Source of the DNA: Taeniopygia guttata
Lineage: Eukaryota > Chordata > Aves > Passeriformes > Estrildidae
Direction of reading: 5' to 3'
Assembly (NCBI RefSeq): GCF_048771995.1
Contig: NC_133032.1
Coordinates: forward strand, 14,512,501-14,576,500
Length of the DNA: 64,000 nt
Shown: piece by piece, positions 10,126 through 61,290 of the stretch
Layout: every line of letters starts with the position of its first letter
Numbering within the stretch: the first letter of the stretch is position 1
Program-made: the position numbers and the translations under genes
Notes under the pieces: generated by a model
Database searches by the model: none
Told to the model about the DNA's origin: nothing
The model's input: the letters and a program-made list of their open reading frames with translations, nothing else

Positions 10126-10410
10126 GGCATGCTGGAGCTGGCAGACTTGCCCCTGCAGAAGGGCTCCGTGGAGCTCCTCAAGCAGAGATGGGAATCTGCC
10201 AACGCTACGAGACCAGGCCTGATGTTCCAGCACTCGCCACTCCCACCATCCCTGGTGCCAGACAGGATCGCCCTGGAGAAGATGCCATCAGACAGCAGGA
10301 GGGCAGATGTGTTTAAGGAGGAGACCCCAGGTGGATCTCAGCTGGTGGAGCACGTCCCTGTCACCGTGGAGGAGCTGCGGAGCCACTTTGAGGCACTGGG
10401 CGGCAGGAAG
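10126..10410 (+). CDS. XIRP2: XIRP2 exon, EPLIN-like N-terminal part (residues 1-95 as numbered here)
   Basis: An open exon of 95 codons between a GCATTGGCAG acceptor and a strong GTGAGT donor, phase 0 at both ends. It carries LQKGSVELLKQRWES, which corresponds to the RKGTL...LKKKWEN block near the N-terminus of LIMA1 (EPLIN). Close to its 3' end, VPVTVEELRSHFEALG corresponds to EPLIN's NVPLNRLKMMFEKG. It therefore looks like two EPLIN N-terminal blocks in one exon. The second codon is ATG, so translation could start here, but an upstream exon is as likely. The exon is GC-rich, unlike every later exon of the gene. I do not recall this part in the human XIRP2 reference protein; an EPLIN-like N-terminus in a bird XIRP2 is an inference from the phase fit and the strand. 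Confidence 0.7.
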
Positions 10411-25400: not shown

Positions 25401-25850
25401 AGGAGAAGCACCCCAAAACGCCAAACTGCAACACATTAAAGACTTGGTTAGCAATAATTTACCCATTTTGCCTTGAAGGGCCGAGGCCACAGAACGATTA
25501 TGAGATGCTGATGATATTATGTAAACTGTATGGAACATTGGCCCACTACTGTGATAACCTAAATTCAGTCGTAAAGTCACAGCAGAATTGAAAATTAAAT
25601 TTCTGAAGTACAAAGCCTATGTACATCTGATTACCAAGACCTCGCTTGCTGTTTTTACATATTCTTACATAATGATAAATCCAGTTAATAAAATTCCCTC
25701 TGTCAACTTTTCTGTGTACAAAAAGTGTTTAAAAGAGCAACTGGTGTTTAATCCATTGGCTCTCTGTACACTCCTTTTGCCCCAAAATCCACATTTCTTT
25801 CCTACTTAATAATGTGTAACATATATCCTGCTCTTGATGTCTTCTAACAG
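16422..25850 (+). other. large XIRP2 intron
   Basis: AT-rich intron. A run of about 137 open codons at 18,477-18,890 has no recognisable homology and no clear splice sites. An AAAC/AAAAC-rich low-complexity stretch lies at about 23,098-23,190, a T run at 24,860-24,878 and an ATTT-rich run at about 25,194-25,226. The segment at about 24,950-25,200 reads like moderately complex, non-repetitive DNA and may be conserved non-coding sequence, but this was not tested. Confidence 0.55.
23098..23190. repeat. AAAC-rich low-complexity tract
   Basis: Loose repetition of AAAC, AAAAC and AAACC words on the + strand with few other bases. A simple-sequence stretch in the intron, without sign of an element end. 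Confidence 0.75.
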
Positions 25851-26004
25851 GAAACAGAAAGTGAGAGAAATTCACTTTCATCACCATTGAAGAGTCAGCC
25901 TGGGAACCAGTCTGCCATTTCTCAGGAGGAGTCTAGCGTGAAAAGAGGGAGAGCAATCTTTGAAAAGATGTCATCAGAAAATGGCCAAAGCAACAGCTCA
26001 GAAG
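25851..26004 (+). CDS. XIRP2: XIRP2 exon (residues 96-147)
   Basis: Bounded by a TCTTCTAACAG acceptor and a GTGAGC donor, starting in phase 0 and ending in phase 1. The peptide is Ser/Gln/Glu-rich and includes EESSVKRGRAIFEKMSSENG. The RAIFEKMSSENG part corresponds to the SRIFEATAGPNK region near the start of a human XIRP2 isoform, as recalled, and its place before the KERMA exon is the same. In LIMA1 the equivalent region is the Ser-rich linker before KDRMAKYQAAVS. Start and end phases fit both neighbours exactly. A hAT MITE sits only 35 bp downstream in the intron, clear of the donor. Confidence 0.82.
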
Positions 26005-26038
26005 GTGAGCATTACCACATTGATACTTTGCTTTAAGA

Positions 26039-29300: not shown

Positions 29301-29848
29301 ACTTCTAGATAAGTCTATAACCTCTTCATACCTTGAAACAAGGTTAAAATGCAGTTATCAACGGAGATAATGTTCTACAAGATTTTAGTAATATTATACC
29401 AACTAAAATATACCCTAATGTAAGGTCAGTAAATAACTGAAATCTACAATAGACTGAGAACAGACTCTGATAAGCAAATTAATACTAAAAAGTCTAAGGC
29501 TAATTAGAACATATCTAATTATAATAGAATACTTGTAGTACTTAAAATTACTTTTTACAGTATAAAATAATGTAAATATAACACTATCAGAAAAATACTA
29601 TGCTTGTTGTCTAAATTGTGTATTTTTTATTTAAAAATGCTTATTGTTTTTTACCCAAGGAATCTCCCCCCCTCTGAAAAGTTTCATTGACTCAAATTTT
29701 TCTGTAATCTCTAAGCTCTGTATTGAAAATAAGATAAATTTGTTTAAAAAATGATATTTCTACTTTCTGCTACTGCTTTTATTTCAAGATTTAGAAAAAA
29801 TTTAGCTATTTTCTTCTTAGAAAATGCCATGCCTGTTTGTATTTACAG
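26325..29848 (+). other. XIRP2 intron
   Basis: AT-rich intron without a recognised exon or element beyond the MITE at its start. A self-complementary run of TA and ATTA words lies at about 26,803-26,826. The last 30 bases form the acceptor of the next exon. Confidence 0.6.
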
Positions 29849-29985
29849 TGGAGTCTCGCAAACTGGTAAGAGGACTATCTAAAGAGAGTGCTCCCAGGGC
29901 TGATAACACACTGCTGGATTTCCAGGAGACTGTCTCCTTTAAAGAAAGAATGGCTATGTACAAGGCTGCTGTGTCCTTTGCCCAT
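29849..29985 (+). CDS. XIRP2: XIRP2 exon with the KERMA.YKAAVS motif (residues 147-192)
   Basis: Acceptor GTATTTACAG, donor GTAAGA, phase 1 in and phase 0 out. The peptide ends in ETVSFKERMAMYKAAVSFAH. This is the signature shared by XIRP2 (VSLKERMARYQAAVS) and LIMA1 (TSIKDRMAKYQAAVS), a helical segment in the N-terminal part of both. The ATG at 29,950-29,952 corresponds to the methionine used as the start of the human XIRP2 reference protein, so internal initiation here is possible. Upstream residues (ESRKLVRGL, RADNTLL) also resemble the acidic stretch before this motif in the family. The identification is firm. Confidence 0.92.
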
Positions 29986-32250: not shown

Positions 32251-32382
32251 AGTTCACAGAAGACCAAGTTCTGTACTGTGCCTGGTGGCCTGGCAGCAGT
32301 GAGGAAACAATTTGAGAAAGTACAAAGGATGTCTCCAAAAAAGACCTTTGTTCAGTACCAGCACCAGCATAGATCTCTACAG
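32251..32382 (+). CDS. XIRP2: XIRP2 exon with VPGGLAAVRKQFEK (residues 193-236)
   Basis: A 44-codon exon between a T-rich acceptor (ATCACTCTAG) and a GTAACA donor, phase 0 at both ends. It contains VPGGLAAVRKQFEK followed by KKTFVQYQHQHRS. Human XIRP2 has VPGGLAKVKKQFED and NTFAQYQYQHQNRS at the same place, directly after the KERMA segment. LIMA1 lacks this block, so the exon marks the gene as XIRP2. The sequence shows no break and is strongly conserved relative to the human protein as recalled. Confidence 0.94.
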
Positions 32383-35300
32383 GTAACAGCATTTTAATTC
32401 TAACAAATTAGGTCTGCCCTGCTAGATAACTGAGGGGAAAAAAAAAAGATTGCTTGCTTTACTGACGAGTTTTCATTATGAGTAAGGCAATATTTTTCTA
32501 ATGCTCATAGTCATAGAATTTTATATTTGTAATGCACCACAGGATTCATATATTTTTTATGCAGATGAACACTCACTATATTTTAGACTCAACTAGACTC
32601 AGATTGAGTAAAGCAAATGATTACTATAGCAGTATTTTATACCGAAACCTGTCTATAAGATTTTTTATTTATACATTATCATTTGTCATGGTGATATTTT
32701 GTATTTATTGCACTTGTTAAGTTGTTCTCTTTCAATAGGAGTTTTCTGCTTCCATTGAATTAAATTAATAAATTTCCCTAAGCAGATCAAAAACTGCACA
32801 GAAGAACCCAGACATTACATGAGAGTAGAGCAAAGCAGTAGCTAAGTGTTGCTTCAGATGAAAGACCTTTACATTTCATTGCTTCATTAGGCTATACCAT
32901 GCAAAATTGTTGTAGGAGATAACGATTTTGGACTATGTGAAATCCCCTGCAATAAAGCGCTGTACAATCTGTCCTGTGCACTCTGAAAAACAGTAAATTT
33001 CTTTACCATCCTGCACTTCTTGGAGAGATTTTTTAAGCAATATTGTTCTCCCAGCTTTTTAGAAAAAAACACATTAACATTTTTCCATAGGTTTATTTTC
33101 ATGTTAAATAACTATCATTGTATCTACCACTCATCTCTCATTTCTTACACATTAATACCTATATCAACAATTTTCACAGACAACAAGCAAAACTCCAGTT
33201 TGTAAGGAAGAAGACAGAGTTTGCTGCAGAGGTATTAATCCATCTTTAACTAAGCAGAAAAATGCCATAGTGGGTCATACTCACAATGGTGCATAATCTA
33301 CAGTAATGGAAGTGTTTTATGAACCTACTTTTCTGATGACATGGCCCACTCTACGTGCCAGTTTTCTGGGTGAATGAATACAGAACCCTGTAGAGAAATT
33401 ATGTGACTTTTCTCTTACGCAGAACCCAATAATTTCATTTCTGTGATGTGTAGATGCATTTTCCAGGACATCCATCTCTCCACAAAGCCACTAGAATGGT
33501 TCCATTTCTCCAGTCATGATGTGACCTCAAAGCATACTTATCCATGAATTTTTCCTCTGTGGCTAGTTGAGGAGGCTCTCTCAAACCACCAGGAGAAATA
33601 GCCACATACACTGGAAAATGAAATCTCTCAGACCATACAGAACCATCTTTAAATTTACATTAAATAACTTATTGCAAGACCATAAAATCCCATTTCTATG
33701 TAACATAACTGCACTTTCATGGAAAATGGGATTATACACTTAAGTAGTTGAAAGATTATTCAAGGTCACTGAATCTATCCTGGGGCAAAACAGAGAAAAC
33801 ACATAGTTTGAAGACAGATCTCCAGATCTGGATAAATTCAAATTATTAATCCAAGATAAAATAAGAACACAAATTTTTAAACAGTAATCTAAATACTTAA
33901 TATTCTACTACATAGTAAATTATTGTTTAAGGTGTTCATGACTTTTCATTCAAAATATTGTCATAAAATATGCAAACAATAACTATTAATCTCCCTGTTT
34001 TTCTCAGGCAGCAGCTATCACTCTTGGCTCTCTACATTGTACTGGAAATTGGTTCTTTGTAATAGTTGCCATAATACCAGTAGAGCTCAATAAACTTGTG
34101 TCCAAAATGGTGAGCAGCAATGAAAACTGACCAGAGACTTGCCCTGTGCTCATGAATTCAACCAAAGTCTGAGTAGACACCTGGTCTGTGTTCTGACCAC
34201 TGACATCATGAGCACCTTCTAGCTCAGCCACCACGATGAGAAGAGGCCATGAGCTTTGGTGTCACACCTGTGCAGGTGCCAGCCTGGAGTGCTTTGCTAC
34301 CCCAGCTCAGCCACCTGACAGCTCAGGCACAGCCCCAGTGCCTGGTGTCAGAAATGAGCCTTAGCTGGCAAGTAAACTGAACCCCCAACACAGCAAAGGA
34401 GTGGAACACAGAGAAATCATCTGATATTCACTCACCCATACAGTACAGAACGTCAGAACTCACACGGGCATAGACACCCCTCTTAACTCAGGGTCATTCC
34501 AGAGCAATTTTCTAAGATGGCTACTGTTGCAATTGCCAATTTTCTAGCAATTGCAGAGAATAAAATTGAATAACAGGACAATGTCAGCGAATGGTGAAAA
34601 CCTCACATTTTAATAAAAATCTTTCATACAGTGCCCAAGACACCCTAAGTATATACATACAAATAAGCAAGGCTGACAAATCATAGGGATGAAGTGCAGA
34701 TAAGTGAAATTCTTATACGAAATTTCTGCAAGACTCTTACTGAGCTTATGTGCAATGAGACCGTGCTAAAGAACATACATAGGTAAAAAAACATTGCTTT
34801 GAGGAAGAAATGAAGATCCATGCCAAATAGCCATTCCATTGTCACTAACTTTGTACGTGAAGTTTCAGGCTCACAATTTACTTCCATTGCTGCTTACAAG
34901 TTTGTACATACTGTTCATTTAGAACAGAAAGTTCTCAATTTGTCAATACATAAGCCAACTTCTGAGAAATTATATGTTGATATAATGTCATGTTTATATA
35001 ATCATATGTTGTACCATTATGTGCAGTTCAACATTATACATCGGTTGTGAGATAGTAAAAGACTTGTGCTTGGATGAACCTCTGAGCCATTTGATCCCCT
35101 TGAAATACATACTTACATAGATAGAGAACTGTATACATGTCTTATGTATATATACATATAATGTACTGTACATATTATGAGCTGAAAAGAATTCTATTTT
35201 TGAAAGTTAAAGTGTGTTTTAATTGTTATTTGAACAGAAGGAAACTAAAAATATCAACACAAAAAAGCAAACCTTGGTCTAAATTACACAGAACAATTAC

Positions 35301-38183
35301 TGATAATTCAAATCTTGGCACATTTTTCAATAAGAATTCTATCTAAATTATTGCAGTACAGAAGTACTAAAATTGTTGTATAACCCACTACCATAAAATG
35401 TGTGTAGCAATTACAGCTCTCTTCAGTAACAAAATGTGAATGCCGACATAAAAAAACACTCCTCTAACAACATTTATACAGACTTGTTCTCGGACTTACA
35501 TGTTTATTTTTAAATAGTATTTTTAGGTTAGAATGACTTATTACCCAGAGACACAACAGTACACAGTAGGGCTCTGTGTTAAGCACCATACAGATTTGCA
35601 AGGGAAGGCCAGCAGCCCACACAAAGGGTGACAGGAAACAAATGTAAGAGACTGGAGGATAAAGAATTCTGAAAGAAAATTTAAAAATTGTAAGAAACTA
35701 TTCATGAGCAAGCAGCATGCCAACAATCATCCAGCTGACAGGGTTTTCTGAAGCTTACTCATGATATGCCATAAACAAAATGTAATTGACCAATTTTACA
35801 GAATATACTACAAAGTCCATGGGATCTACAAAACATGCCACAAAGCATAATGGGGTAGACTAAATTAATCATACCTACACAAATGCTATATCCAACAGTT
35901 GGCAGTTCTAGAGGAGGGATGAAACCACAGATCTTCTAACTCTCCACTTGTTCAGAGTAATAAACCAGCAGCATTTAACACCCTGGAATTTCAATTAGCC
36001 ATTTTGTCTGACACACAAAATAAGAAATCCTCCATGTCCCTCTACCTCCCAGCATGCCCAGAGCAAGGCTGTGTAATTATATCATCAAAATCTGGCTCAT
36101 AATGTTTGGGCTGTATTTTCGACGGCCATTGCTATAGCATTAAATTATTATGGTCTTTTGCAATATGGCAACTACTTCATAAGCAGTACCAAAGTTACAG
36201 CAATAAAGCACTAGTGACATTCAGATTAGATATGCTTCCTGACTACATTAAGTCTAATTATATTTCTTTTTTATGCCCCACACCATTCCAAGGACACATA
36301 ATGACTACTCTGAACATATTTCATGTCTCATGAATGAGCTTTTCCAGTAATGAGAGCTTGAATTACATATCTAAAACATGCACATTAGAACAGAAAGGCA
36401 TATCTTAAATGAAAAAAGCATATATATGCATAAATATATTAAAAAGCATGTCCATATAGAGTGAAAAGGCATATTAGACATACACCTACACAGTCATTAA
36501 ACAGAGAATAGATGGAAAAATTTTCATTTCATTCTTTTTGAACTGCCTCTTTTCAACCTGGTATGTGGTTAGCTCTACATCTCCTCACATGCAGTGCAGC
36601 TCCCCCACAGCTGTTATGTACACAGGACCTGCAAGTGTACAACAGGACATCCTGTAAAAGCAGGACATGCTGTGACCTGCTCTCCTCAAGCCTCAATGCA
36701 CTCCGACAGTTCAGACAGGATTGCTTTTGATACTGGTAATACACTAAATCATTTACTGGGCCAGCAATAAGAAAATTTATTCTACCCTTTGTTCGTACAA
36801 TTTTAATTCATCTTATAGCTGAAACAGGATTTGGCAGCACAGAAGTGGAAAAGAATTCCTAAAGCCCATGGTGGGAATGCTCATTGTTTCTCTGCCATAA
36901 ATCTAAGAACCCTTGCTGCCTACTGCATGGCAGAAATTACAGGCCAGGCAGTAGATGACCCCTTATTGATTCAGCAGTATTAATGGAGATGCAAGCTGTG
37001 TAAGCATTCCTTAGTTTGAAGGTGGAATAAATCCATAAATATATGCTTTCTCATGGCATGACTAAGAGAAAGAAGTAATTTCTTGCCCCACAATTAACTG
37101 TATTTCAAGTAGTAATCAGGACTTGAGATGCAGGAAGTTTACAGCTCTATGTTGCACTAGATGTGCACCAGCAATCTCAGAAACACAGTACTGCCACCAT
37201 TGATGCTCAAGTTACATTGAACACTTGGGAAACTCTTGCTGGAGGGACCAGAAGCTCATTTCATTTGAAAGCTTATTATCAGTAGAAAACAAGCTTCCTT
37301 CTAACAAATGAAGAAGAAAATATAATTTGACATGAGTGAAATTATTTGTTAGATGGCTCTGTGTGTATGGGTGAAGCCCAGGACTGCTTAATAATATCAA
37401 TCTTTCAGATTTATTTCTTCTAATCACTAAGCCTCAAAGTACCCCATGGACGCTGGTAATGATGTAACACAGGTTTGGTGGCAGTCTTCAAATAAGAAAA
37501 CAAATCACTGTCAGAATCTGAAGCCTAACCAAACACAGATTCAGAAATCAGTTTATACAGACATCTTGGACAGTGCTTTAAACTCCTGAAGATACACTCT
37601 GTTTATTACACTGCAGTTGTCAGGCTTGTAGTTGCAGTGCTACCCTCTATATTTTACAGAATCTCTGGTTACTCTATGGGTCATATTTTTCACAATTGTA
37701 ATTCAGCATGATTTTTGCATTGAAAGAAGTTTATAAAGCACATGCAGGGAGTCATCACCTCATACAGACATATCACACTTCCTTTTATAAAGTTGCATTA
37801 GCATTATGTCCCCTGCAAGGCAACAAGTTGGAGGCACAGCATATAAAGCCAGAACAAGTCCTCCTTGTCACCTCTACCCCCTCCCAGTCCAATTATGCAT
37901 TTTATCTATTCATGAACCTTGCCATATCTGCTGGCCAGCATCTTGCTGCAGTAACAAAGACTTGACATCTTCTGTGTTACAAAAAAGCCAGTTCCAATGT
38001 TGATAGCAAAAAATATCAAAGATAATAACAATGGCATTCTGCTGTAAAATGGCTGCTCTAGTTATACCATTTCCATTAGAATTAATTTCTGACAGCCCTT
38101 CAGGCAAAAAAAAAAAAAAAAAAAGAAAAAAAATCTGATTTACTATTACCTGTTAATGTGATTTTTTTTTTATTTGTCTTGAG
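32383..38183 (+). other. XIRP2 intron
   Basis: A long AT-rich intron. A more GC-rich segment at about 34,000-34,520 stands out and may be a worn mobile element, but no family could be named. A mixed A-rich tract lies at 38,106-38,134, just before the next exon, and a T run forms part of that exon's polypyrimidine tract. Confidence 0.55.
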
Positions 38184-38291
38184 GAAACATCAAGCAGCAG
38201 GCACCACACAGTATCAAATAGCACCAGGGAAGCTGAGTGCAATGAAATGACCTCCAAAGAAAGTCAAAAAGAAGCTTCTCAAACACAAGAG
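38184..38291 (+). CDS. XIRP2: XIRP2 exon (residues 237-272)
   Basis: A 36-codon exon, phase 0 at both ends. It has a long T-rich acceptor ending TTGAG with the exon starting GAAACATC, and a GTAACT donor. The reading is Ser/Glu/Gln-rich (ETSSSRHHTVSNS, KESQKEASQTQE) and lies where human XIRP2 has a similarly polar stretch (TSRSSQEMARNEQEGSK). Conservation is weak, as expected of a linker, but the open frame, splice sites and phase all agree. The acceptor has GAG rather than the usual CAG or TAG, which is less common. Confidence 0.8.
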
Positions 38292-38641
38292 GTAACTATA
38301 TCATTTAATAATCATCTTATTGGACAATTACACTGATACTGATACATACCTACTTTGCTTCTTCTCCTTTACCTCTTGGTACAGCAAGATCTGGATTTTC
38401 TGCTGAGAGCTTATCTCATTACTCAGGGCATAATAACTTTTAAAGATGTTTTACTACATGAAGGTATTATTTAATGCAGTTAAATGTATTAATTTTTAAT
38501 GTATTATTGTTCTATCATGATAATTTTTGTATTTACATTCATATTTTTCATTGATGCAATATTTTAAATATGGCTTCAGAAGTATGTAAAATTCTTATGC
38601 ATTGCACTAAATCATGAGTAAAGTGAAGGTTTTGTGCACAG
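38292..38641 (+). other. short XIRP2 intron
   Basis: A 350-bp AT-rich intron between two short exons. Nothing else is visible in it. Confidence 0.75.
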
Positions 38642-38708
38642 GTTTCTCCTCATGAGCAAGTTATTCATGAAATGAAAATGGCTCCTACATTCACTCAGCA
38701 CGACACAG
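38642..38708 (+). CDS. XIRP2: XIRP2 exon (residues 273-295)
   Basis: A small exon of 67 bases with a TTTTGTGCACAG acceptor and a GTAAGA donor, phase 0 in and phase 1 out. The peptide VSPHEQVIHEMKMAPTF lies where human XIRP2 reads TEMVSHLEKHTEE and onwards, a weakly conserved helical linker. The phase-1 end is completed by the TA at the start of the next exon, giving Val. Alone it would be uncertain; the phase fit to both neighbours makes it likely. Confidence 0.78.
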
Positions 38709-39392: not shown

Positions 39393-39526
39393 TAATCAAT
39401 TCAGCTCAGAATGAAGAGCTCCCAAAGACTGTAACAGAGATTTTAAAACAGCAGATTGAGAAGGCAGCTCAGGAAAAGGCTGTTCACTCTGTCAGAGAGA
39501 TCACAACTTCTGCTAAAGAAGTAAAG
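39393..39526 (+). CDS. XIRP2: XIRP2 exon with EELPKTVTEILKQQIEKAAQEK (residues 295-339)
   Basis: Starts in phase 1 after a strong TTCTTCCCATTGCAG acceptor and ends in phase 0 at a GTCTGT donor, a rather weak consensus. It contains LPKTVTEILKQQIEKAAQEK and ends REITTSAKEVK. Human XIRP2 has [20 protein letters not shown] and KEMTTPAKQIK at this position. In mammals this exon is followed by the giant Xin-repeat exon in the long form, or is spliced past it in the short form. Because it ends in phase 0, it joins in frame to the LIM exon at 45,249, which starts in phase 0. Confidence 0.93.
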
Positions 39527-40254
39527 GTCTGTATTTTTAATAAGAGCAATCTTTCCTAATGCAAATGAGCAGTTAAGATACTGGTCTGTCATGCTGTCTG
39601 ATTTTCTACTTTGAATAATTATGATTAAAAATGTACCTTATGGAAGTGGTGGGAATATACAGACTTCAGGAATTAAGTGCACATAATGTAATATGTAATA
39701 CATTAGAAGGCTCCATAAGTATTTCAAGTATGTGACAAAACCAAGTCAAGGTAAAAACTTCTGCATTTTCTCCTCCTCTGATGAATAGTCTCCTCTTCCC
39801 TTGTTTTGAATCTCTAAGTATGTGTAATTTGTCACCGCAGACCCTCAAAAAATACCACTTTCAAAAGAAATTAAAATGACCATAAGCGACAGCTAAAGTT
39901 TGTTATGCTTATAATGCAAAGTCTGCATTTGTTGCATCAAAATCTCTAAGACTGCTCAATCATCATTTTGCATGAATTCCACATTTCTTTTCACATATAT
40001 CCTATGATGCAAATATCACAGCTCTTAGCTCAAAAGATTGGTTTTATGCATTCTGAGCAATAGCTGATAGATTGTGTCTTTCCAGATCCTATTATAATCC
40101 TATTGCTTGGATCTTGCAGAACTTGCTTTTGTGCAGAAGAGAAAAATTGTTTTCTATATTACTGTGCTTAAAAAAAAAGAGGAAAAGAAAAAAAAATAAA
40201 AAAGAGGGAAAAAACCACAACCATAAACCACAGAAAACCCAACATATTTGCCCC
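39527..40254 (+). other. intron before the fossil Xin exon, with an A-rich tract
   Basis: AT-rich sequence with no exon. An A/AAG-rich low-complexity tract occupies about 40,170-40,216 and directly precedes the first recognisable remains of the giant exon. The former acceptor could not be recognised and may be hidden in or replaced by this tract. Confidence 0.6.
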
Positions 40255-41310
40255 TAAAGATGGAAAATACATACCAGGAAATCACATTAACTTCAACAGT
40301 TCATCTGCTACTGCTACAACTTCAGGAAATTCAGACTACAGGAAATTTCTACACCATGGAAAAAACAGGATGGAACTTCTACCTCTGCTATTATTTGCTC
40401 CTGGTACATGGAAGCACAGGAAAACTTCCCAATACTTATGCAAAAGCTCCAATGGAACTGTCAATGTATTCTGAGTCTATTAGACCAGCCAGCTCTCCAA
40501 CAAAGTCCATTGTGTCCATGGATCTGTACCCAAAGCAATTTATGTGAATTAAGACATTTATATAATTTTTTACACCCAATATTAAGAAAACACTTAGAAA
40601 AACATTTTCTAATATTTTATGTCATGGATCTGAAACACAGAATATGACTTTAGATGTGCAGCAGGTAGATCTAAATGGCTTTGCCTTCATCATTCAGATG
40701 TTCACAAGGCCAGAAAAATGATGCTTAGTGGCATAAAATCCAGAGAGGAGAGGTCCTCTCTCTAAGGTGAGAGAATCAGCCTTTCATTCCATTTAAGATG
40801 ATCCTCCAGACCCAGCTGAAGCTAGAAGTACTGCACAGAAGGAACCATTGCAGGAAGAAATGTTAAAATATTCAGCCTGAATGTTTCAGATGCAGCCTCT
40901 TGCCGTGCTGCATGCACATGCCCCAGGCTCTGCAGGAACTATGGACAATATCCATGCATTAGGTAGAGGAGGTGTTGGTGCAGGCAGGTGGGTGTTTGAA
41001 ATGCAGCCACTGAATTATATGAATAAAAATCCCGAGAGAGGAACAAGTATCAGCTGAAACACGCATCTAAGAAGTTTCTAATGGTGCTGTGAAGATTCAG
41101 AGGTACATGCTGGAAACACAGAATCCGGATAAACTTCAGCAGCTCAATCCAGTTATTTCCCTTAACTGCTTGCAGACAAAGCCTGAGCTGAAAGGGAAGC
41201 TGAGCTCTTCACAGAAGGGTAAAGAGAAGTATAATATGTTTTATACAGCCATTGTGTGTTACCAGAGAGAGCTTCAAAGATGGGAGAATGAAGCTGTCCA
41301 TGGATAAGAC
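40255..41310 (+). pseudogene. XIRP2: decayed Xin-repeat giant exon of XIRP2
   Basis: In mammals this place holds one exon of roughly 9 kb coding for the long-form region with some 28 Xin repeats, each a short F-actin-binding unit built on W.FETQPLD. Here only about 1.1 kb is recognisable and it is not open. A Ser/Thr-rich start is followed by SIVSMDLYPKQ and, in another frame, ELRHLYNFLHPILRKHLEK at 40,546-40,602, matching human XIRP2 ELKRLYKHIHPELRKNLEK. LDVQQ follows (human SADVQQ). Then come remnants of about five Xin repeats in order: ENQPF (40,771-40,785), MFQMQPL (40,881-40,901), RWVFEMQPLNYM (40,986-41,021), RYMLETQNPDKLQQL (41,101-41,145) and NMFYTAIVCY (41,232-41,262). Between them are in-frame stops (for example after LKHRI at 40,645 and before MFQMQPL) and at least three frame changes. 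The rest of the exon is missing or unrecognisable. Confidence 0.88.
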
Positions 41311-42743
41311 ACTGAAAAGAGGCATCACACAATAACACACCAGATGAATGCAGCTTTTACCTGTGAAAATAAAACTCCTATGTGTAATCTTAGTGGAGGA
41401 AAACATACAGTGCTACACACATGGCAAAAAAGCTGAAATAAAGCCTTGACACACATAGGATCCAAAGGAATTAAGTCCAGCTGAAACATCCACTACAAAA
41501 ATCAGACAAGCAAGATCAAGATCCCATAAGAGATGCAACAGCTCCTGTAACACTAGAGCAAACCACAGATTCTGACTCTGACTTGGATGGCAACAATACC
41601 CAAGTATACAAGAATAAGACATAGGAATTCAAATAGATAGATTTCCATGAAGTCCAGAAGACTGAGAAGCTGAAGATGCAGGAATTTAGGATTAACACTA
41701 AGAGATCTATCCTGAAGAATTACATGCAGCAAAACAAAAATATACTAAAAATAAATATTACAATTATAATTGCATTACTGTTCTATTTGAAATACATTAA
41801 CATGCTAGAAAATGTGCACAGAATGCACCTCACTTTTCTTGTTTAAAATTAATACATCCTCTAACCGGAAGTAAAATGTCCGTATAAAACAGCTGTGGAG
41901 ACAAAATAATGCTCATATTTTGTGCACATCCATTTTTAGTGTAGTAAAATACAAGATATTACTTTAGACAAAGTGAACTATGTTTCAGTGGATTTTCTGT
42001 TCGAGTAAAATTACTGAAATGGTTTAAAAATTACTATGCAATTAAAAAAAAACCCCAAACTGCTACTTCCTGATATGTGATTTAACCAGTTCATAAAGCT
42101 CTAGTCTGAATTTAGGCAATGAAACGAGATGTAAGGGTCCTGGTTTCACAATACTAAGGAGTGAAGCTGCTCAGTGTGTCTGTCAAAGAACTGAAGCCCA
42201 TTATTTGTTTCATATTGAACAAAATTTTAAACTATATGATGTGAATACATATATATTTCTAACTGAGTATGAAGCAAACATGGAAAATTAAGCATGACTT
42301 CTTTCTTATGGTGCATGTTTTACTTAAAAATTATATTAAAATAGCATTTAGATTGCAAAGTTATGGATTTAAAACATAGAATATGTTACATATGCTACTG
42401 AAAGATGAACATCAGTGTCCTCCTTTTTTTGCATCTATTTTGGGCACTGAGTACGGATGGGATCCTGCAGGAAGACCAGATGTTGCTTTAGCCATTTGAT
42501 AGATGAAGCAGGTGCTTACGTTTGAACAGCAGAGCAAACGTCAGAACAAAGCTAAACACTCCTGCAGCAGCAAAAGTGCAGAGTTCACTATTCCTGAACA
42601 GAGAGCTTTGCTTTGGGATCCCAGCACTGTGCACCATGAGAGGGGTGCTACCTCTGATCACACTAGGAGCAGAATTGGACATGAGTGGGTTGTGAGCCTG
42701 TAAGAAGAGGCACGGCCTAGCAGCGATCCAACAAAATACTTCA
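41311..42743 (+). other. region after the fossil exon, possibly holding its far end
   Basis: Mostly AT-rich intron-like DNA. At about 41,499-41,745 one frame reads as protein-like sequence, with two in-frame stops: LEQTTDSDSDLDGN, then FHEVQKTEKLKMQEFRINTK and RSILKNYMQQNKN. This may be a second remnant, from nearer the 3' end of the giant exon, with the middle deleted. I could not match it to a remembered stretch of XIRP2, so it stays a suggestion. Confidence 0.35.
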
Positions 42744-43287
42744 TGTGGTGGGCTGGCTCTTGGTGACAGCTAAATCCACACCCACTTACCCACACCCCAC
42801 GGGGGACTGGGAGAAAGAATCAGAAAAGCAAGAGAGCTTGTTGGCAGAGGAAGAGAGGTTAATAGGGAAAGCAAAGCTGGGACATGAGCAAAGCAAAAGA
42901 AGTAACTGATGTCTTGTCACTTCGGCCTCAAAATGCACAACTTTTACTTGAAGGACAAACACTCTGAATGTCCCTTTTCCTTCTTTCCCTCCAAAGTTTC
43001 TATTGCTAAGCGTGATGTCACATGCTGTGGAATATCCCTCCAGACAGCTGGGGTCGGCTCTCTTGTTTGTGTGCTCTCTCAAGTATCTTGCAAATCCCCA
43101 GTCTACCTGCTTGGGACTGGGCAGGAGGGCACAGTGGGAGGAAGAAGGGACTGTGACACTGGGCAAGTACTGTTCAGCAACAGCTAAAACATTGTGTGTT
43201 ATCAGCACTCGAGCCCAAATTCAAAACAGCACTGAATGGGCTGCTATGAAGAAAACAACTGCATCCCAGATAGTCTCAATAAAAGCA
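42744..43287 (-). mobile_element. old solo LTR of an avian ERV (ERVL-like)
   Basis: Read on the minus strand, this matches the plan of a widespread avian LTR. The left part includes TTTTCTTCATAGCAGC and TGCTGATAACACA, followed by CTGTTGCTGAACAGTA. In the middle are GGATATTCCACAGCATGTGA and a region where the family has its TATA box. Near the 3' end are TTCTGATTCTTTCTCCCAGT and a terminal segment ending CCAGCCCACCACA. No internal retroviral region or second copy accompanies it, so it is a solo LTR. It is diverged along its whole length, hence old, and not functional. Target duplications were not recognised. The family name is from memory; ERVL-like is the best guess. Confidence 0.75.
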
Positions 43288-43443
43288 CCTATGTTAAAAG
43301 TGAGTAGAAATACCCAGTTCCAGTAAAAAAAGGGAGTTTTCTAAAAATCAACCCTCTGGATTTTGTTTTTAATCTCTTTCTATATTGATGACCTCAAATA
43401 GCAGACCAGCCTTTTCCTCACTGATTTTGCAGGACCATTCACA
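43288..43443 (+). other. spacer between two LTRs
   Basis: A 156-bp stretch of intron separating two solo LTRs of different families. No further structure is seen. Confidence 0.6.
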
Positions 43444-44241
43444 TGTGGTAGGTTGACTTCTAGCCACTGTTCCATTCCGTCTCCTCCACAAGATATGAAA
43501 TGAAAATAGGATGAAGAAGCTCATGGGGCAATTTAAAGACAGGGAACAACACAAGGACACTTACCAATTACTTTTATAGCCATGGGAAAAAAATATTTGC
43601 CAATTAAGATAGATTCAGATTGTGAGAAAAAAAAAAAAACACTGCAACACCTCCCCTTCTGCCATCTTTTTTATAGTCTCAGCTTTACTCCTGCCTCTTC
43701 CTCATCCCTCTCCCACCCCCAGTAGCATCCCCAGTAGAGGGGAAGGGGAATGGGGGGCTGGGGTTAGTCCATACCAGTTCCTCTCTGCTGCTCCTTCCTT
43801 CACACACCTGTCCCTTGCTTCAGCCTGGGCTCTCCATATGCCACAGGTCCTTCTGGGAATACCCACCGTGGCGTTCCCCAGAGGCTGTAGGATCACTGCT
43901 CCTGCGTGGTCCTCTCCCAGGCTGCAGGGAAGTACCTGCTCAATACCTGCTTCCCTGGTTGCCTCCACAGGCTGCAGGGGAATCTCTGTTGCAGCCTCTC
44001 CTCCCCTTGTTCTTCTCTGACCTTGAAGTTTACAGGGCTGGTTCTGACACTTTTGCCCCCCAGTCCTGGCTGCATGTGCAGCTTTTTGCCCTTTTGGAAC
44101 ACGTTTTCCCAGAGACAGGAGGAGCGTGGCTGAGCGGCCCCGCCGTGCATCCAGAGCTGGTTGTGCCCAGCACGGGCAGGCCCTGCTGCTCCTCACAGAG
44201 GCTGCCCCCAGCCACGAAACTGTGCCACTAACACACAATAT
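43444..44241 (-). mobile_element. second old solo LTR, different avian ERV family
   Basis: On the minus strand this follows another well-known avian LTR, one with tandem-like GC-rich blocks. It has a TTAGTGGCACAGTTTCGTGG start, a segment with AGCAGCAGGGCCTGCC, a CCCTGTAAACTTCAAGGTCA block, several copies of CCTGCAGCCTGTGG-like words, a TAATTGGTAAGTGTCC block near the 3' part and the end GTCAACCTACCACA. It is shorter than the family's usual length as I recall it. No internal region is present. An open frame of 244 codons that lies within it on the minus strand is a by-product of its GC-rich composition. An old, broken fossil. Confidence 0.75.
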
Positions 44242-45248
44242 GCGATTCAATTTCAAAGGGATGCATGTTGCCTCACCATTCAGTCCTGGAAGTTGTTTTG
44301 GGATAAATTTCCCTTCAATTCCCTCTGCTTTCCTCTTCTCTTGATTTGCCTTCTGAGGCACAACACTCACTATCAATTTTCCAACTAAGCAAAGTAACCA
44401 TTCAATGAGACCGTTCTCCTGGATAGATGTCACCATTCTTCCCCTCCTAATTACCTTATCTCCTTCCTCTCCCCCCTCTACATTCAGAACACTTGAGTAC
44501 CTAAGAATATTCAGCTGAGTCCTGGTGCTTGGCTCACAAATGGTCCGTGCAAACAGGCTGCCCTTACTGGTATGTGAGCCCCTTGCTGGTATGAAACTTT
44601 CTAGTCATGTTTTGTACTTTATAGAGAAATAGCTTTCTTTATAATTAAATATGCTTCACATAAGAATTTATAAAGCTATTAATATAAATGTAGCTACCTT
44701 AGTATTAAAAGTCAACTGAAAAAAGTATCAGGCCTGACAACTAAAATTGTAAAAATCACAAATAATTATGTCCAGTGCACAGTTTGGAGGTTACCACAAA
44801 AGGGGTAACCCCTATTGTGCATTTGGCATGGCTAAGCAAAAATTCTGCATCGGAATTTCAAACATCCATCCCTACTTACTGATCTTTAAATCACGTGGTA
44901 CATTCAAAGATTACACATACAGTATACTCAATTCCACTTATTGGAAAACCCTCTATTATTCTACCACATTTCACACAATAGTTAGTTATTACAAATAAAT
45001 GGAAGATATTGTACCTGGTAAAGTTCTTTCAAATGCATGGATTCCTGCAAAGGGAAAGGTAAGTAGTTTTTAAATTTCCAAGTATTACTGTTAGTTGAAA
45101 AAAAATAGAAGCCCTACAAAAAACAACTGAGATACCAGTTGGCAGAAAATGGAAAATGTTCTAACAAAATATATGGACTGATACTGCTCAAATTAAATCA
45201 TAACATGTGGCTTATACTAATTTGTAACCTTTTATTATGTGGTTGTAG
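44242..45248 (+). other. XIRP2 intron before the LIM exons
   Basis: AT-rich from about 44,600; the first part (44,242-44,590) is pyrimidine-rich and could belong to an unrecognised repeat. The acceptor of the LIM exon ends at 45,248. Confidence 0.55.
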
Positions 45249-47898
<2,650 letters not shown>

Positions 47899-48040
47899 GT
47901 ATTTCTTCAGCCTATTTATTTTAGTCTTTCATGGAGAATTTAATATCCAGATATTACACAAAAAATACAATTATATTGTCAATTACCCAGACTTTATTCA
48001 GTTAGTTTATATTTAAGACAATAAAGATGTAGATTTTTTC
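47899..48040 (+). other. XIRP2: 3' UTR with AATAAA polyadenylation signal
   Basis: A canonical AATAAA lies at 48,020-48,025, about 120 bases after the stop codon, followed by a T-rich stretch suited to cleavage. A second AATAAA at 48,753-48,758 could end a longer transcript. Which is used cannot be told from the sequence. Confidence 0.6.
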
Positions 48041-57000: not shown

Positions 57001-59529
57001 TCTGCCAATTATAGTACACTTCAGTACTAGAGTACTGTTCTCCTAAAACCTGAAGTAAAAATCTAAAGGATATACAGCAACTGTGTTTCTTTTCTTCATA
57101 AAGGAATTTCAGGATAGTTCCTACCATCTGCCAGAATCCCCAATACCAGCATTTAGCCCAAAGTTCACATCTTGTTGGCTGTCTTAACAGCTAAAACAAT
57201 GATTTTCCTAGGTGTGATTCTTAACTTCTATCACACCTGTTGATCCAGGACAGAAAGGACTCCTGCTTACAGAGCTGTAGGGAAATTAAATTTCTTATAC
57301 TGTTTCAGCTATGAATAAGAACAGCTCAGCTCATGTATGTCCTTTAGTGCTTTCCAGGAGTACAATAAAAAGAACTGCTGAACTGTCTTATGGGACTGAA
57401 GGCTAAATTACGGTTTTGTGGGCTGAGATATAGGAAAAAAAATGCCCCTAGTTTATCGGGGGGACTGCTAAACTTTAGAATATATTATTTGTACTGTAAA
57501 GCACTTTATTTCAGCAGTATATTTCAGGTGTACTGCTTTTTTTTCCTCATCTCTTTTCTGCTTTTAATTTTTTGGTGCTTCTACACCTATAACAACATCT
57601 TCCTCTGAGTTGTTTTGTCTCATAAACAGGATATTTAGTTGAAATGTAGTTTTGTCTTTCTTGATAAGGATTTAGCTAACTTACACACTGAGGTGTGCAT
57701 ATGATTGCAAAAAGCTGCAGTAGAACTTAAAAGTCCACTCTTTAATATGAACATAAAATTCAGATATGATTATCTGAATGTCTGTTTGTATTTTTGGATA
57801 AGTTTACAGTATTAAAACTAATCACATGTATGTTCTGCTTACTAGAAAGAAATTACTTTAAAAAGATTATTTTTAATATTTCCTCCTTCTCTGCAGGAGT
57901 TATAAAGCTATAAGTGTACAATGCTCTAGTCAGTTCTGTAATATCTGTAAAACTGTCCACAGTAAATAAAGTGTGTTGGGTTTTGGGTTTCTTTCAAGAT
58001 AACAATATGGCTCTTACCAAAAGTTTAAAAAAAACCCTGTTTTAACAAAGAGTAAAGAACCTCATATCTTTTCTTAAGTATAAAATGCTACTTTTAAAAA
58101 TGTACTTTCTTAAGGCTTATAAAGTATATAATAAGCAATAAAACCCATTTCCTAGAAGAAAACATCTCTGACTGAGCTGTTGCACAGTGCCTAAGCACAT
58201 AAGCATTTAAAACATTTCTTCTTATTTCATTCCAAACGAAAATGAGTGCATTGAGTCTTCAGACTGGACACTGCAAACTCAATTGCCACCAAAAGAAAAA
58301 AAAAAGTAAACTGTTGAAAAGTGTGAGGTAAAGGGCATGACTTTCACATTGTTTAACAGTACCAGCAGTTCTGAACTCAGCACAGATGAGGGTACCTGCA
58401 TCTGGTACAACTAAACAAGGAATTTGGTCTATAAATTGTATCTAATATTGATATTAAAAATATTTCATTAAGGAATTAACAAACATTTGCTTATAACCAG
58501 ATTAACTTGATAGATTATTTGATTTTAGAAACCTTTCTTATTAGGCATGAAATACAATGGCAAGCCACTAGGAATCAATAAATCTCCACACCTTTTCGAA
58601 TCAGCAAAGAAAGCATGGAACTAAACAAGGGGTTCTACTTGACAAGCAAGTTCCAAAACAGGGGGTAAAGACCATCAACACTGAAAGGAACCTAGGAGTA
58701 AAATACATTTCTGAAACGTTTTCAAGCATTCCACATTGTTTTTTAGACACTAGAAAAGAGGGAAGAGACATTTATTCTTAGTATAACTGAAATCTTAAGA
58801 GTCTAGTTATTAGTTCTAGAAGAAGAGTAGTAAAAATGCAGTTGAAGTTGTTGTACTCCTCTCCTGCTGTTACATTCCCTCTTCCCCTGGATCTCCTGAT
58901 CAGTGTCCTTCCACCCTAATGCAGACGGGTGATAACAGTGACTTTGTGAGCATTTGGAGTCCTTGGCCAGAAGTCCAATGTTTAGGTTTATTATTTCTTC
59001 CCCCTCCTCTGGTTTCCCGTTAAGATAATTTTTATCTTTGCAAGCAAAGATTCTTTACTGTCTTCACTTGTTTGCAGCTCTAATTCTGCACCTGCATTTA
59101 GTATGTTATCTTTTAGATATATCAGGTACTGTATCTTTGCAACCTCCAAACCCACTTTTGTCCAGCTCTAGACTTGCATTTCTTTAAGTGACTGTAGGCG
59201 AGCCATTTACCACCACGGCCCTCCAGTACCACGCCCATGCCCCTTCCCTTAGTGCCTTATACCAATAATCCTCTACGGCTCATCTTCGGTCTTCACTTCT
59301 CCAGGGCCTGTGGTACCTAGCAGACCTGTTCACCTGTACAGTACATCACTGTGGTTCGGGCCCAGAACACCTCGTTCTACACAGAGTAACAACAAAATGC
59401 AAACCTATGGGTGCACCACATAAACAAAAGTTAGAAACAGGCACCTGGTCCGCTGGCAAAACCCGCTGCTACAGCTGAACCAATTTAAACACAGGTGCGG
59501 GCAGGTGGGCACTGCCAGTTCTGAGCCCT
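48041..59529. other. intergenic stretch between XIRP2 and the CpG island
   Basis: About 11.5 kb of AT-rich DNA with no convincing exon or RNA gene. The segment at about 56,490-56,830 is of higher complexity and contains an ATTTGCAT octamer (56,767-56,774) and CTTTGTTT/ACAAAGG words of the SOX type; it could be a conserved enhancer, but this is only a guess. A run of A lies at 50,425-50,441. A TATAA-like stretch near 55,368 is not accompanied by other promoter signs. Confidence 0.5.
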
Positions 59530-59574
59530 TGTGAACTCGCCGCCGCAGCGCAGTGGCAGCCGTAGCGATGGAGG

Positions 59575-59625
59575 GTCCGGCACGGCACGGCACAGCCCGG
59601 CGCGGCACAGCACGGCAGCGGGGCA
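59575..59625. repeat. GGCAC-type short repeat in the CpG island
   Basis: Loose tandem copies of CGGCA and GGCAC words within the island. A simple GC-rich repeat, probably variable in length. Confidence 0.6.
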
Positions 59626-59990
59626 GCAGCCGAGGACGCGGTCCTGTGCCCGCCGCGGCCGCGCCAAGGTCGGCGGCCGCCGGCAGCAGCCGCAGGGATG
59701 TTGCCGGCGGACACGGTTTCAGCTCAGTGGAATTCCCCTGGAAAAAAGACATCTTCCACTAAATGTTTCTTATTTTGAACAAAGCGCCCTGGTGCGAAAC
59801 TCCACATTGCTGCGCTCGCGGGGAGCGGGCAGGCACACGCTCCCAGCCGGCCGCTGCACGGCCGCTCCCCAGCCCGCTCCCGTTTCCCAGAGCGGCCGGG
59901 CAAGGTTGGCCCAGCCGCGCGCGTTACCAGCACCGGCACCCTCCGCCGGGGCTGGAGCGCGTCCCGGAGAGCCCGCGGCGCTGCCGGGCG

Positions 59991-60078
59991 GGGACACCGG
60001 CCGCGGGCACAGCGAGCACCCCGCCCGGCGGGGACAGCGACCGCGGGCACAGCGAGCACCTCATCCGGCGGGGACACG
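59991..60078. repeat. 40-bp tandem repeat (about 2.2 copies) upstream of the promoter core
   Basis: Units start at 59,991, 60,031 and 60,071, exactly 40 bp apart. Each begins GGGACA and the two full copies share CCGCGGGCACAGCGAGCACC. The third copy is partial. The array lies just 5' of the NF-Y/CRE/GC-box cluster. High identity between copies suggests a young or still variable minisatellite. Confidence 0.9.
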
Positions 60079-60229
60079 GGCGGCACGGCCGCGGCGCGGC
60101 TCCCGCCGCCCGGAAGCGGCGCTGCCGCGCGGAGTGTCTCCCATTGGCCTGTTCCCGTCACGCCGTCCCGCCCCCTCGGCGCGGCGCGGGCGGCCATTGG
60201 CTGGCGGCGGTGCCAGTCGGCGAGGGCGA

Positions 60230-60369
60230 GCTCCGCCGGTGCCCGCGCTCGCGCGGCGCGCGCTCTGCCGGCTGGTGCGGCTGCGGGCGGAGCAGGGATG
60301 CGCCCCGGCTGCGGGAGCGCGGCGCGGAGCGGCGGCAGCCCGGGCGGCCGAGGGCGGCGAGCACGGCCG
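60230..60369 (+). other. candidate first exon of the downstream gene (splice donor at 60,370)
   Basis: A CCG/GTAAGG donor at 60,370 follows the promoter core at the distance expected of a short first exon. The start at 60,230 is only an estimate. The exon contains one ATG (60,298) that stays open for 24 codons up to the donor, but the Gly/Arg/Ser-rich reading looks like a by-product of GC-rich DNA. It may be a 5' UTR exon; B3GALT1 is the candidate by synteny. It could also be the start of a non-coding RNA. Confidence 0.4.
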
Positions 60370-61060
60370 GTAAGGTCCGGCGGGAAATGCCCGTCGTCGT
60401 GCGCATCTCGTGCGTACGGTTCTGAAGGGGCCGCTGGCAGCGCCGGGGAGCGGTGCCGGCACGGGAGGAGCGGAGAGCAGGCGGGATGCTGGGATGCCGG
60501 GATGCCGGGGGCGGCCGGCGGCGCTGGGCCGCGGCGGGCAGGGGTCGCGGGCGGGCGCGGTCCCCTACCGCCCCTCGCCGTGCCCTTCGGCGCGGGGGTC
60601 CCCGGGCGGGACCGGCGGTGCGGTGGGAACTTCGTCTGCCCCCGCCCGGCTGGCGGCGGCCGGTGGCGCCGGCGGGTGCCGCGGCGGGGGGCGACATCAG
60701 CCCTCCTTAGGGGCTGCGGCGCTGCCCCCCCGCCCCGCCGCCCCGGGAGGGCCGCCGAGCGGGGGCCCTGCTGTGGCCGCGGGGCCGCCGGGGGTGCGGC
60801 CGGGGAGGCGGTGTCGCGGGTCCCGGCGGCGGCGCTGCCCCGGGCGCGGCCGTGCCCCGGTGGCGGCAGCGCGGCCGTGCCCCGGGCCCGCGCTGGGGGC
60901 GCTCCGCGCGGCCGCGCTGTCCTGGGGCGGCGGGCTGAACTTCCCTTCGAGCGAGGATTTTACTCGAAGGTGTTCCTGGACGCCCGGCGAGGAGAGTCTC
61001 GCAGCCGAAGGCGGCAGCGGTGCTGCTGTGGCCGCAGACTGGGTCTTAAAGTTGTTAACA

Positions 61061-61290
61061 CAGTTACCGCAAAGAAAAGTTATTTTAAAGTCAGCGTATC
61101 GGTGGCGGCTGGTACATGGCCACTGGCTATTGAGACGGAGGAATTAGAAATAGGAAATCCTTACCTTTATCCTTTATCCTTATGCACTCCTTTCCATTGT
61201 TCTTTTAGCGGTAGAGACAATACTGGAAGGTTTTGAAGTGTTGTCAAATCTTGTTAATTTAGATTAAAACAGCATTCAGGTGTTCTTTAG
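61061..61290 (+). other. edge of the CpG island
   Basis: Transition from island to AT-rich DNA. A pyrimidine-rich run ending CATTGTTCTTTTAG at 61,209 resembles a splice acceptor, but no exon with clear limits follows it. Confidence 0.4.

Follow-up and report, generated by a model that had tools for sequence, protein, structure and literature searches.

The Xin-repeat exon of zebra finch XIRP2 persists as a decayed relic whilst the remainder of the gene is retained

In the mouse, the short isoform of XIRP2 (Xinβ) lacks exon 7, carries a LIM domain and a C-terminal domain and is located in stereocilia, and exon 8 is translated in a different frame when it forms part of the long isoform (PMC10259482, whose mouse exon numbering is followed here). 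The same two isoforms are found in the zebrafish (PMC3280289). The gene gives two proteins through the inclusion or skipping of a single giant exon, exon 7: inclusion produces a long actin-binding protein which contains all of the Xin repeats and ends in the second frame of exon 8, and skipping produces a short protein with the LIM domain (exon 8) and the C-terminal domain (exon 9). Mice of one line that lack Xinβ have heart defects and die before weaning, and a link between the protein and Hippo-YAP signalling has been described (PMC7494909); another Xirp2 knockout survives with hearing loss by 7 weeks (PMC10259482), and zebrafish tolerate the absence of Xirp1 and of Xirp2a (PMC3280289). For birds, Grosskurth et al. 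(2008; PMC2478706) reported that Xinβ/XIRP2 was lost in the avian lineage, with no Xinβ gene in chicken and probably none in turkey and no 335-kDa band in the hearts of either; how far the loss extends among birds was left open. That cXin is the sole family member in chicken was repeated in 2012 (PMC3280289).

The locus considered here lies in a window of 64,000 nucleotides, by which is meant the whole stretch of zebra finch (Taeniopygia guttata) DNA that was analysed, at 14512501-14576500 of contig C9. Its orthology to XIRP2 is seen in the N-terminal exons, the LIM exon and the C-terminal-domain exon, all of which are present. Three exons (39,395-39,526, 45,249-45,382 and 46,254-47,899) translate into 636 residues which are 100% identical to the NCBI XIRP2 of T. 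guttata (846 aa), and exact peptide matches in the forward frames of the window cover 846 of the 846 residues of that protein. The exons in Table 1 were placed by tblastn with the models P0001 (finch, 846 aa), P0002 (Lonchura) and P0003 (Zonotrichia); the exon at 10129..10410 is not part of P0001, and at 36819-37000 the Lonchura model has an extra exon which is absent from the finch model. An island of very high GC content at 59500-61200, in which long frames are open on either strand, may be the promoter island of a nearby gene. With the low-complexity filter off, XIRP2 proteins also gave weak matches at 46.4-47.5 kb and 59.7-61.1 kb, which were rejected as compositional noise. The C-terminus of finch XIRP2 (47801-47898) is an extension which follows a run of A; the emu and ostrich proteins end in ...EEQIKRNRFYDENE and that of the alligator in ...EEQIKRNRCYDENE. 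Among the first 120 proteins, three have a finch-like end (finch, Zonotrichia and one without a species name), 11 have the older type and 106, many of them incomplete, were unclassed; in some songbirds the XIRP2 tail may have been altered by slippage within the run of A.

Table 1. Positions of XIRP2 exons and exon relics within the 64,000-nucleotide window
Feature	Position	Strand	Evidence and remarks
XIRP2 N-terminal coding exon (MLELADLPLQKG...FEALGGRK)	10129..10410	+	tblastn P0002 97%, P0003 91%; followed by donor gtgagt
XIRP2 coding exon	25848..26009	+	matches P0001, P0002 and P0003; ends approximate
XIRP2 coding exon	29848..29985	+	100% to P0001; ends approximate
XIRP2 coding exon	32251..32385	+	P0001, P0002; 3' end approximate
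XIRP2 coding exon	38178..38297	+	P0001 95%; ends approximate
XIRP2 small coding exon	38642..38707	+	P0002 100%, P0001; ends approximate
XIRP2 exon 6, last one common to both isoforms, phase 0 end	39393..39526	+	100% to P0001
XIRP2 exon 7 relic, part 1	40260..41446	+	homologous to emu XIRP2 ~458-876
ELRHLYNFLHPILRKHLEK motif directly ahead of the Xin repeats (emu YELKRLYKHIHPELRKSLEK)	40546..40602	+	
XIRP2 exon 7 relic, part 2, post-repeat region	41490..41594	+	emu ~2667-2700
XIRP2 exon 8, LIM (short-isoform) frame, open	45249..45382	+	100% to P0001
Exon 8 second (long-isoform) frame, dead	45251..45343	+	TGA 45269-45271 and TAA 45326-45328, before the natural end
XIRP2 exon 9, LIM end and C-terminal domain, 548 codons plus stop, open	46254..47898	+	100% to P0001

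The initial annotation held that, between the exons at 39,393-39,526 and 45,249-45,382, the Xin-repeat exon survives as a decayed remnant, and this was confirmed, far beyond chance, by tblastn, by frameshift-aware alignment and by the controls to both. When 13 intact XIRP2 long proteins of amniotes were used as tblastn queries against the interval 39,527-45,248, all 13 gave matches, the best at 118 bits and E 7e-38; no match came from the reversed interval, and the highest score over 50 shuffles was 27.7 bits. The gorilla long protein also matches the relic, with weaker scores. Matches to exon 7 in the interval between exons 6 and 8 fall mainly at 40,254-41,446 and 41,490-41,594, are colinear and lie on the correct strand, with two alignments beginning as early as 40,164 and those of crocodilians reaching 41,834. 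In the frameshift-aware alignment, emu residues 457-876 correspond to 40,257-41,446 at 50-51% identity over 381-382 codons, with a score of 616. Among the controls, none of 60 shuffles exceeded 106 and none of 42 other pieces of the window exceeded 90; the reversed sequence scored 92 and the reverse complement 48.

In the emu the intact exon has some 3,145 codons (residues 458-3602, as derived from alignments), in keeping with the size of about 9 kb that had been assumed for it, and part 1 of the relic pairs with the first 420 of these residues. The extent that had been claimed for the relic stood in part: the piece of about 1.1 kb is present, with its bounds corrected to 40,260-~41,446, whilst the statement that the rest of the exon is gone did not hold, as a second piece lies at 41,490-41,594. 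This second part was matched by Caretta (E 2.5e-6), Pangshura (1.7e-5), Crocodylus (1.2e-4), emu (4.7e-4) and ostrich (0.27), the reversed interval giving one match at E 0.23. A deletion of approximately 1,790 codons separates the two parts, and nothing clearly recognisable of the exon-7 sequence beyond emu residue ~2,700 was found in the interval between exons 6 and 8.

The AG at 40,258-40,259 is kept directly ahead of the old exon start at 40,260, and the frame which is open from this position stops at 40,547, ahead of the first repeat. An A-rich tandem array is situated at 40170-40205, just 5' of the relic's old splice acceptor. As had been described, the motif ahead of the repeats is retained, the five battered repeats can be recognised by eye in the emu alignment in their ancestral order, and the relic is broken by stops and frame changes: against emu, 7 stops (at 40719, 40768, 40794, 40878, 41068, 41333 and 41345) and 9 frameshifts were counted. 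These counts are the same at frameshift penalties from -12 to -20, become 7 and 12 at -8, and at -30 become 9 stops and 2 frameshifts with an identity of 43%; in plain tblastn the emu protein matches the two main pieces at 35% and 44%. In a neutral simulation, an identity of 50-51% together with 7-9 stops fits approximately 0.30-0.35 substitutions per site, a value which carries no time calibration. The evidence supports the view that exon 7 of finch XIRP2 is a fossil and that the remainder of the gene is retained.

No other locus with XIRP2-type Xin repeats was found in the zebra finch assembly (1.14 Gb, 41 contigs), a check that had been proposed with the initial annotation. The profile PF08043 gave 11 matches genome-wide (106 of 106 candidates scored), all in one frame of 2,569 residues on contig C3 which was identified as XIRP1 from its own sequence, and none at the XIRP2 locus; the DNA of the relic, compared with the whole genome, matched only itself. 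Relocation of the Xin-repeat exon elsewhere was rejected on these searches. That the relic derives from the XIRP1 paralogue was also rejected, as the first 700 residues of finch XIRP1 score 175 against the 616 of emu XIRP2. XIRP1 (Xin alpha, cXin) is a Xin-repeat actin-binding paralogue of XIRP2 at a different locus (C3); in the finch it is intact, with 16 individually significant Pfam repeats, and unlike XIRP2 it is the remaining Xin-repeat protein of this bird. Of the Xin and LIM domains, P0001 has LIM only, and the long proteins of emu and kiwi have 20 significant Xin repeats each. With disabling lesions at the orthologous place and no intact copy found elsewhere, finch exon 7 is a unitary pseudogenised exon.

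The rest of the gene has indeed been kept, and the short LIM-domain isoform is wholly open in the finch. All eight zinc-ligand positions of the LIM domain are present, exons 8 and 9 being taken together, and no lesion was seen in the 846 codons of the short form, compared with 24-42 expected at the lesion rate of the relic. Identity between finch and emu is 89% in the LIM domain, 61% in the C-terminal domain and 56% in the N-terminal part, and it follows from the latter two values that the short form itself has changed fast; for the C-terminal domain, the finch-emu value is close to the 60.5% between emu and alligator. As the retained part is a known separate isoform, one isoform has been lost, rather than a protein maimed.

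The frame of exon 8 that belongs to the long isoform was aligned with the tails of emu, kiwi, rhea, Eudromia, Caretta, Alligator and gorilla; in the finch it is clearly homologous to emu TAASGKGNMHTLSTESLSNGMPSCRQAEFS, yet it holds two stops, and the LIM frame is intact. This frame is where the long proteins of six of the seven palaeognaths terminate; in the ostrich model exon 7 is instead followed by the LIM frame. An Asp codon written as GAT produces the second stop; the LIM frame would be unaffected by this change had the ancestor carried GAC, and GAC is indicated by the Gln of emu in the long frame. The first stop requires a pyrimidine at the third place of one LIM-frame codon, which encodes K in emu. 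Among 115 non-emu bird proteins (116 of the first 120 had the motif and four did not, emu was then removed, and up to three entries without a species name may be included), the residue is N, Y, H or D in 109 (101, 5, 2 and 1, respectively), T in four, I in one and K in one (Alca torda). Of 169 other proteins, 150 showed no match to the LIM-exon pattern; in the remaining 19, long-form carriers whose protein also contains the LIM exon, the residue is K in 15, L in two (gars), S in one and Q in one; with a stricter pattern the figures are 106 of 112 birds and 12 of 14 long-form carriers. Since every codon for N, Y, H or D has T or C in the third place, the data suggest, rather than prove, that the first stop is also present in other neognaths.

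A comparison across birds and other vertebrates by protein searches did not uphold a loss in all birds, because palaeognaths retain the Xin-repeat exon. With the N-terminal part of owl XIRP2 as query and candidates of approximately 1,400-4,470 residues, 112 matches were obtained, 112 of 112 with PF08043; the only birds among them were emu, Eudromia, ostrich, rhea, Nothoprocta, Tinamus and kiwi, and there was no neognath. With emu residues 457-1560 (exon 7) as query, the same seven palaeognaths headed the best 120 of 1,000 matches at 92-95%; next among these 120 came turtles (79-82%), crocodilians (79%), tuatara (78%), lizards (73-76%), snakes (approximately 71%), mammals (mostly 68-72%), coelacanth (69%) and six entries without a species name (69-76%, below the turtles), and again no neognath. 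Either search should have placed a neognath near the top, had one carried exon 7. The seven species, known from predicted proteins, represent all five living palaeognath orders. In a search for the short form, 115 of the best 120 of 1,514 matches list LIM, five list no domain and none lists Xin; emu is the sole palaeognath among them, three entries have no species name, and the 116 other named entries, which include the finch, are presumed to be neognaths (the lineages of finch and ibis were looked up). No member of the Galloanserae is among the long or the short forms listed; for chicken and turkey, the absence of the long form is taken from PMC2478706. These absences should be considered with caution, as DNA was seen for the finch and the other neognaths are represented by predicted proteins, many of them partial and able to omit exons. 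As the exon persists in ostrich-like birds, its loss seems to fall in the lineage that led to most birds alive today.

A second member of the Neoaves, an ibis, carries the same relic. P0085 of Mesembrinibis cayennensis, a predicted and partial protein, has 109 residues of exon 7, which correspond to emu 705-813 (71%) and are flanked by exon 6 and the LIM exon. Finch and ibis were compared with 167 intact XIRP2s over columns which are at least 98% invariant, finch gaps and stops being skipped: both were changed at eight columns, with the same new residue at four (D709G, T712A, T719M and F756L), and a further five were changed in the finch alone and one in the ibis alone. The motif-breaking changes GDV to GGV and FET to FEM are common to both. 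Of residues absent from every intact protein, seven are the same in the two birds and five differ. Under independent neutral decay an agreement of 15-26% would be expected (P 0.0006-0.02 for the 7 of 12; 0.02-0.14 for the stricter 4 of 8). This is a modest test, and as the agreement exceeds expectation the decay of exon 7 probably started before the split of ibis and finch. Within this segment two frameshifts and one stop occur in the finch and none in the ibis model, so the lesions visible in the finch are partly later. Residues 46-154 of P0085 and 386-423 of the Gouldian finch model P0065, homologous to 40956-41268, are relic pieces which have been modelled as coding, likely an annotation error.

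Taken as a whole, these results are best explained by the decay of the Xin-repeat exon 7 in neognath ancestry with retention of the short form, a reading in which we have high confidence. Exon 7 would no longer have been needed and would then have decayed; since its skipping keeps the short form in frame, the latter would have been undisturbed and is still open. The pattern points to a single loss before the radiation of neognaths or of Neoaves. Alternatively, several lineages of birds could each have lost the exon on their own after the radiation, the redundancy of XIRP1 making the loss tolerable. The ibis model, free of stop or frameshift where the finch has two frameshifts and a stop, and the modest strength of the shared-state test speak for such a course, but it is unlikely given that no long form occurs among neognath records in two protein searches able to list one, and that four of the eight doubly changed near-invariant sites, GDV to GGV and FET to FEM included, show the same derived residue. 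A shortened, repeat-poor exon 7 might still be used in some neognaths, for instance the ibis, as a new small insert, as P0085 includes its 109 residues as an in-frame stretch that links exon 6 to the LIM exon, and the Gouldian finch model contains a relic piece. The chance of this appears very small, as only 2 of 120 models match the relic, the Xin signatures are broken, both models look like gene-finder picks of open stretches, and the finch has a stop and frameshifts in that very segment.

That the finding is an artefact of assembly or annotation, with an intact exon collapsed or misplaced, might be thought of for an exon so long and repetitive, yet is hardly credible: in place of a gap there are stops, frameshifts and colinear homology, the window contains no N, the PF08043 and relic DNA searches found no second copy in the finch genome, and no neognath long form is among the matches listed. 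Assembly error is also made unlikely by the 115 further named bird entries other than emu (best 120 matches) for whose XIRP2 no Xin domain is listed and by the occurrence of the same relic in the ibis. It could finally be argued that birds simply lack Xinβ/XIRP2, as published in 2008 for chicken, and that the window adds nothing. The loss in the avian lineage and the missing 335-kDa band in chicken and turkey heart (PMC2478706), and the description of cXin as the sole member in chicken (PMC3280289), favour this, but we regard it as very unlikely, as the finch has a coding XIRP2 gene, XIRP2 entries of another 115 named birds apart from emu stand among the best 120 matches, and palaeognaths retain the Xin repeats. 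In chicken, XIRP2 is annotated on chromosome 7 with missense SNPs (PMC4205046), belongs to the cluster of proteins most strongly enriched in the membranes of chick stereocilia, the isoform not being stated (PMC5005036), and, as LOC772075, is among the genes of a hair-cell analysis of the chick utricle (PMC6855842). The gene is therefore alive in chicken too, which fits a loss of the isoform rather than of the gene; the absence of XIRP2 from birds is contradicted at gene level and stands only for the Xin-repeat isoform in chicken.

The decay of exon 7 in neognath ancestry would have consequences for both isoforms. XIRP1 may cover the muscle role in neognaths, and the kept short form may act in the stereocilia of finch hair cells as it does in mouse. 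In a wider reading, which we favour with some reserve, XIRP2 was split by loss before the neognath radiation: the Xin-repeat isoform of muscle and junctions would have been permanently discarded, XIRP2 would have become a dedicated stereocilia-maintenance protein, and XIRP1 the sole Xin of heart and muscle. If this is true, the dual-coding exon 8 was thereby released from one of its two frames. The Xin-repeat isoform is well conserved elsewhere (emu and sea turtle 82% identical, emu and coelacanth 69% in the Xin-repeat region), and neognath birds appear to live without this conserved Xin-repeat copy of XIRP2. They would provide a natural separation of the two jobs of XIRP2, at muscle junctions and in stereocilia upkeep, and of two overlapping reading frames of one exon. 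A comparison of hearts and hair cells between neognaths and palaeognaths could show which of the functions of Xinβ are indispensable and what has taken their place.

Whether such a loss had already been described for birds was raised with the initial annotation, and the answer is in part yes, in the 2008 absence of Xinβ in chicken, but as a whole-gene loss. No description in print of the exon loss was found among open-licence papers, including the passages on avian Xinβ in PMC2478706 and PMC3280289, and it may be new in print. The chicken described by Grosskurth et al. (PMC2478706) resembles the finch in being a bird without a Xin-repeat XIRP2. The difference is that a gene loss in birds was concluded there, whereas at the finch locus the gene is kept and one exon is lost, with its relic visible, and palaeognaths keep that exon. 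A better description is that in neognaths the isoform with Xin repeats has probably been lost, whilst the gene survives in a short form of the hair-bundle type, and the result corrects the claim that chicken lacks XIRP2.

The finch gene resembles the source of the short isoform of mouse and zebrafish in its exon order, its LIM exon, its C-terminal-domain exon and the frame in which exon 6 joins exon 8; in the mouse, however, the short form is one of two isoforms (PMC10259482), whereas in the finch it is the sole isoform that the locus can make. A similar distribution among birds has been described for STK33, lost as a whole gene in neognaths and kept in palaeognaths (PMC4509753). Like exon 7 of XIRP2, the STK33 unitary pseudogene is functional in palaeognaths and has been reduced in neognaths to deleted remnants which bear stops and indels. 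In STK33, however, the whole gene was lost, whilst in XIRP2 the loss concerns one alternative exon within a living gene, together with the overlapping frame of the exon that follows, which is dead too.
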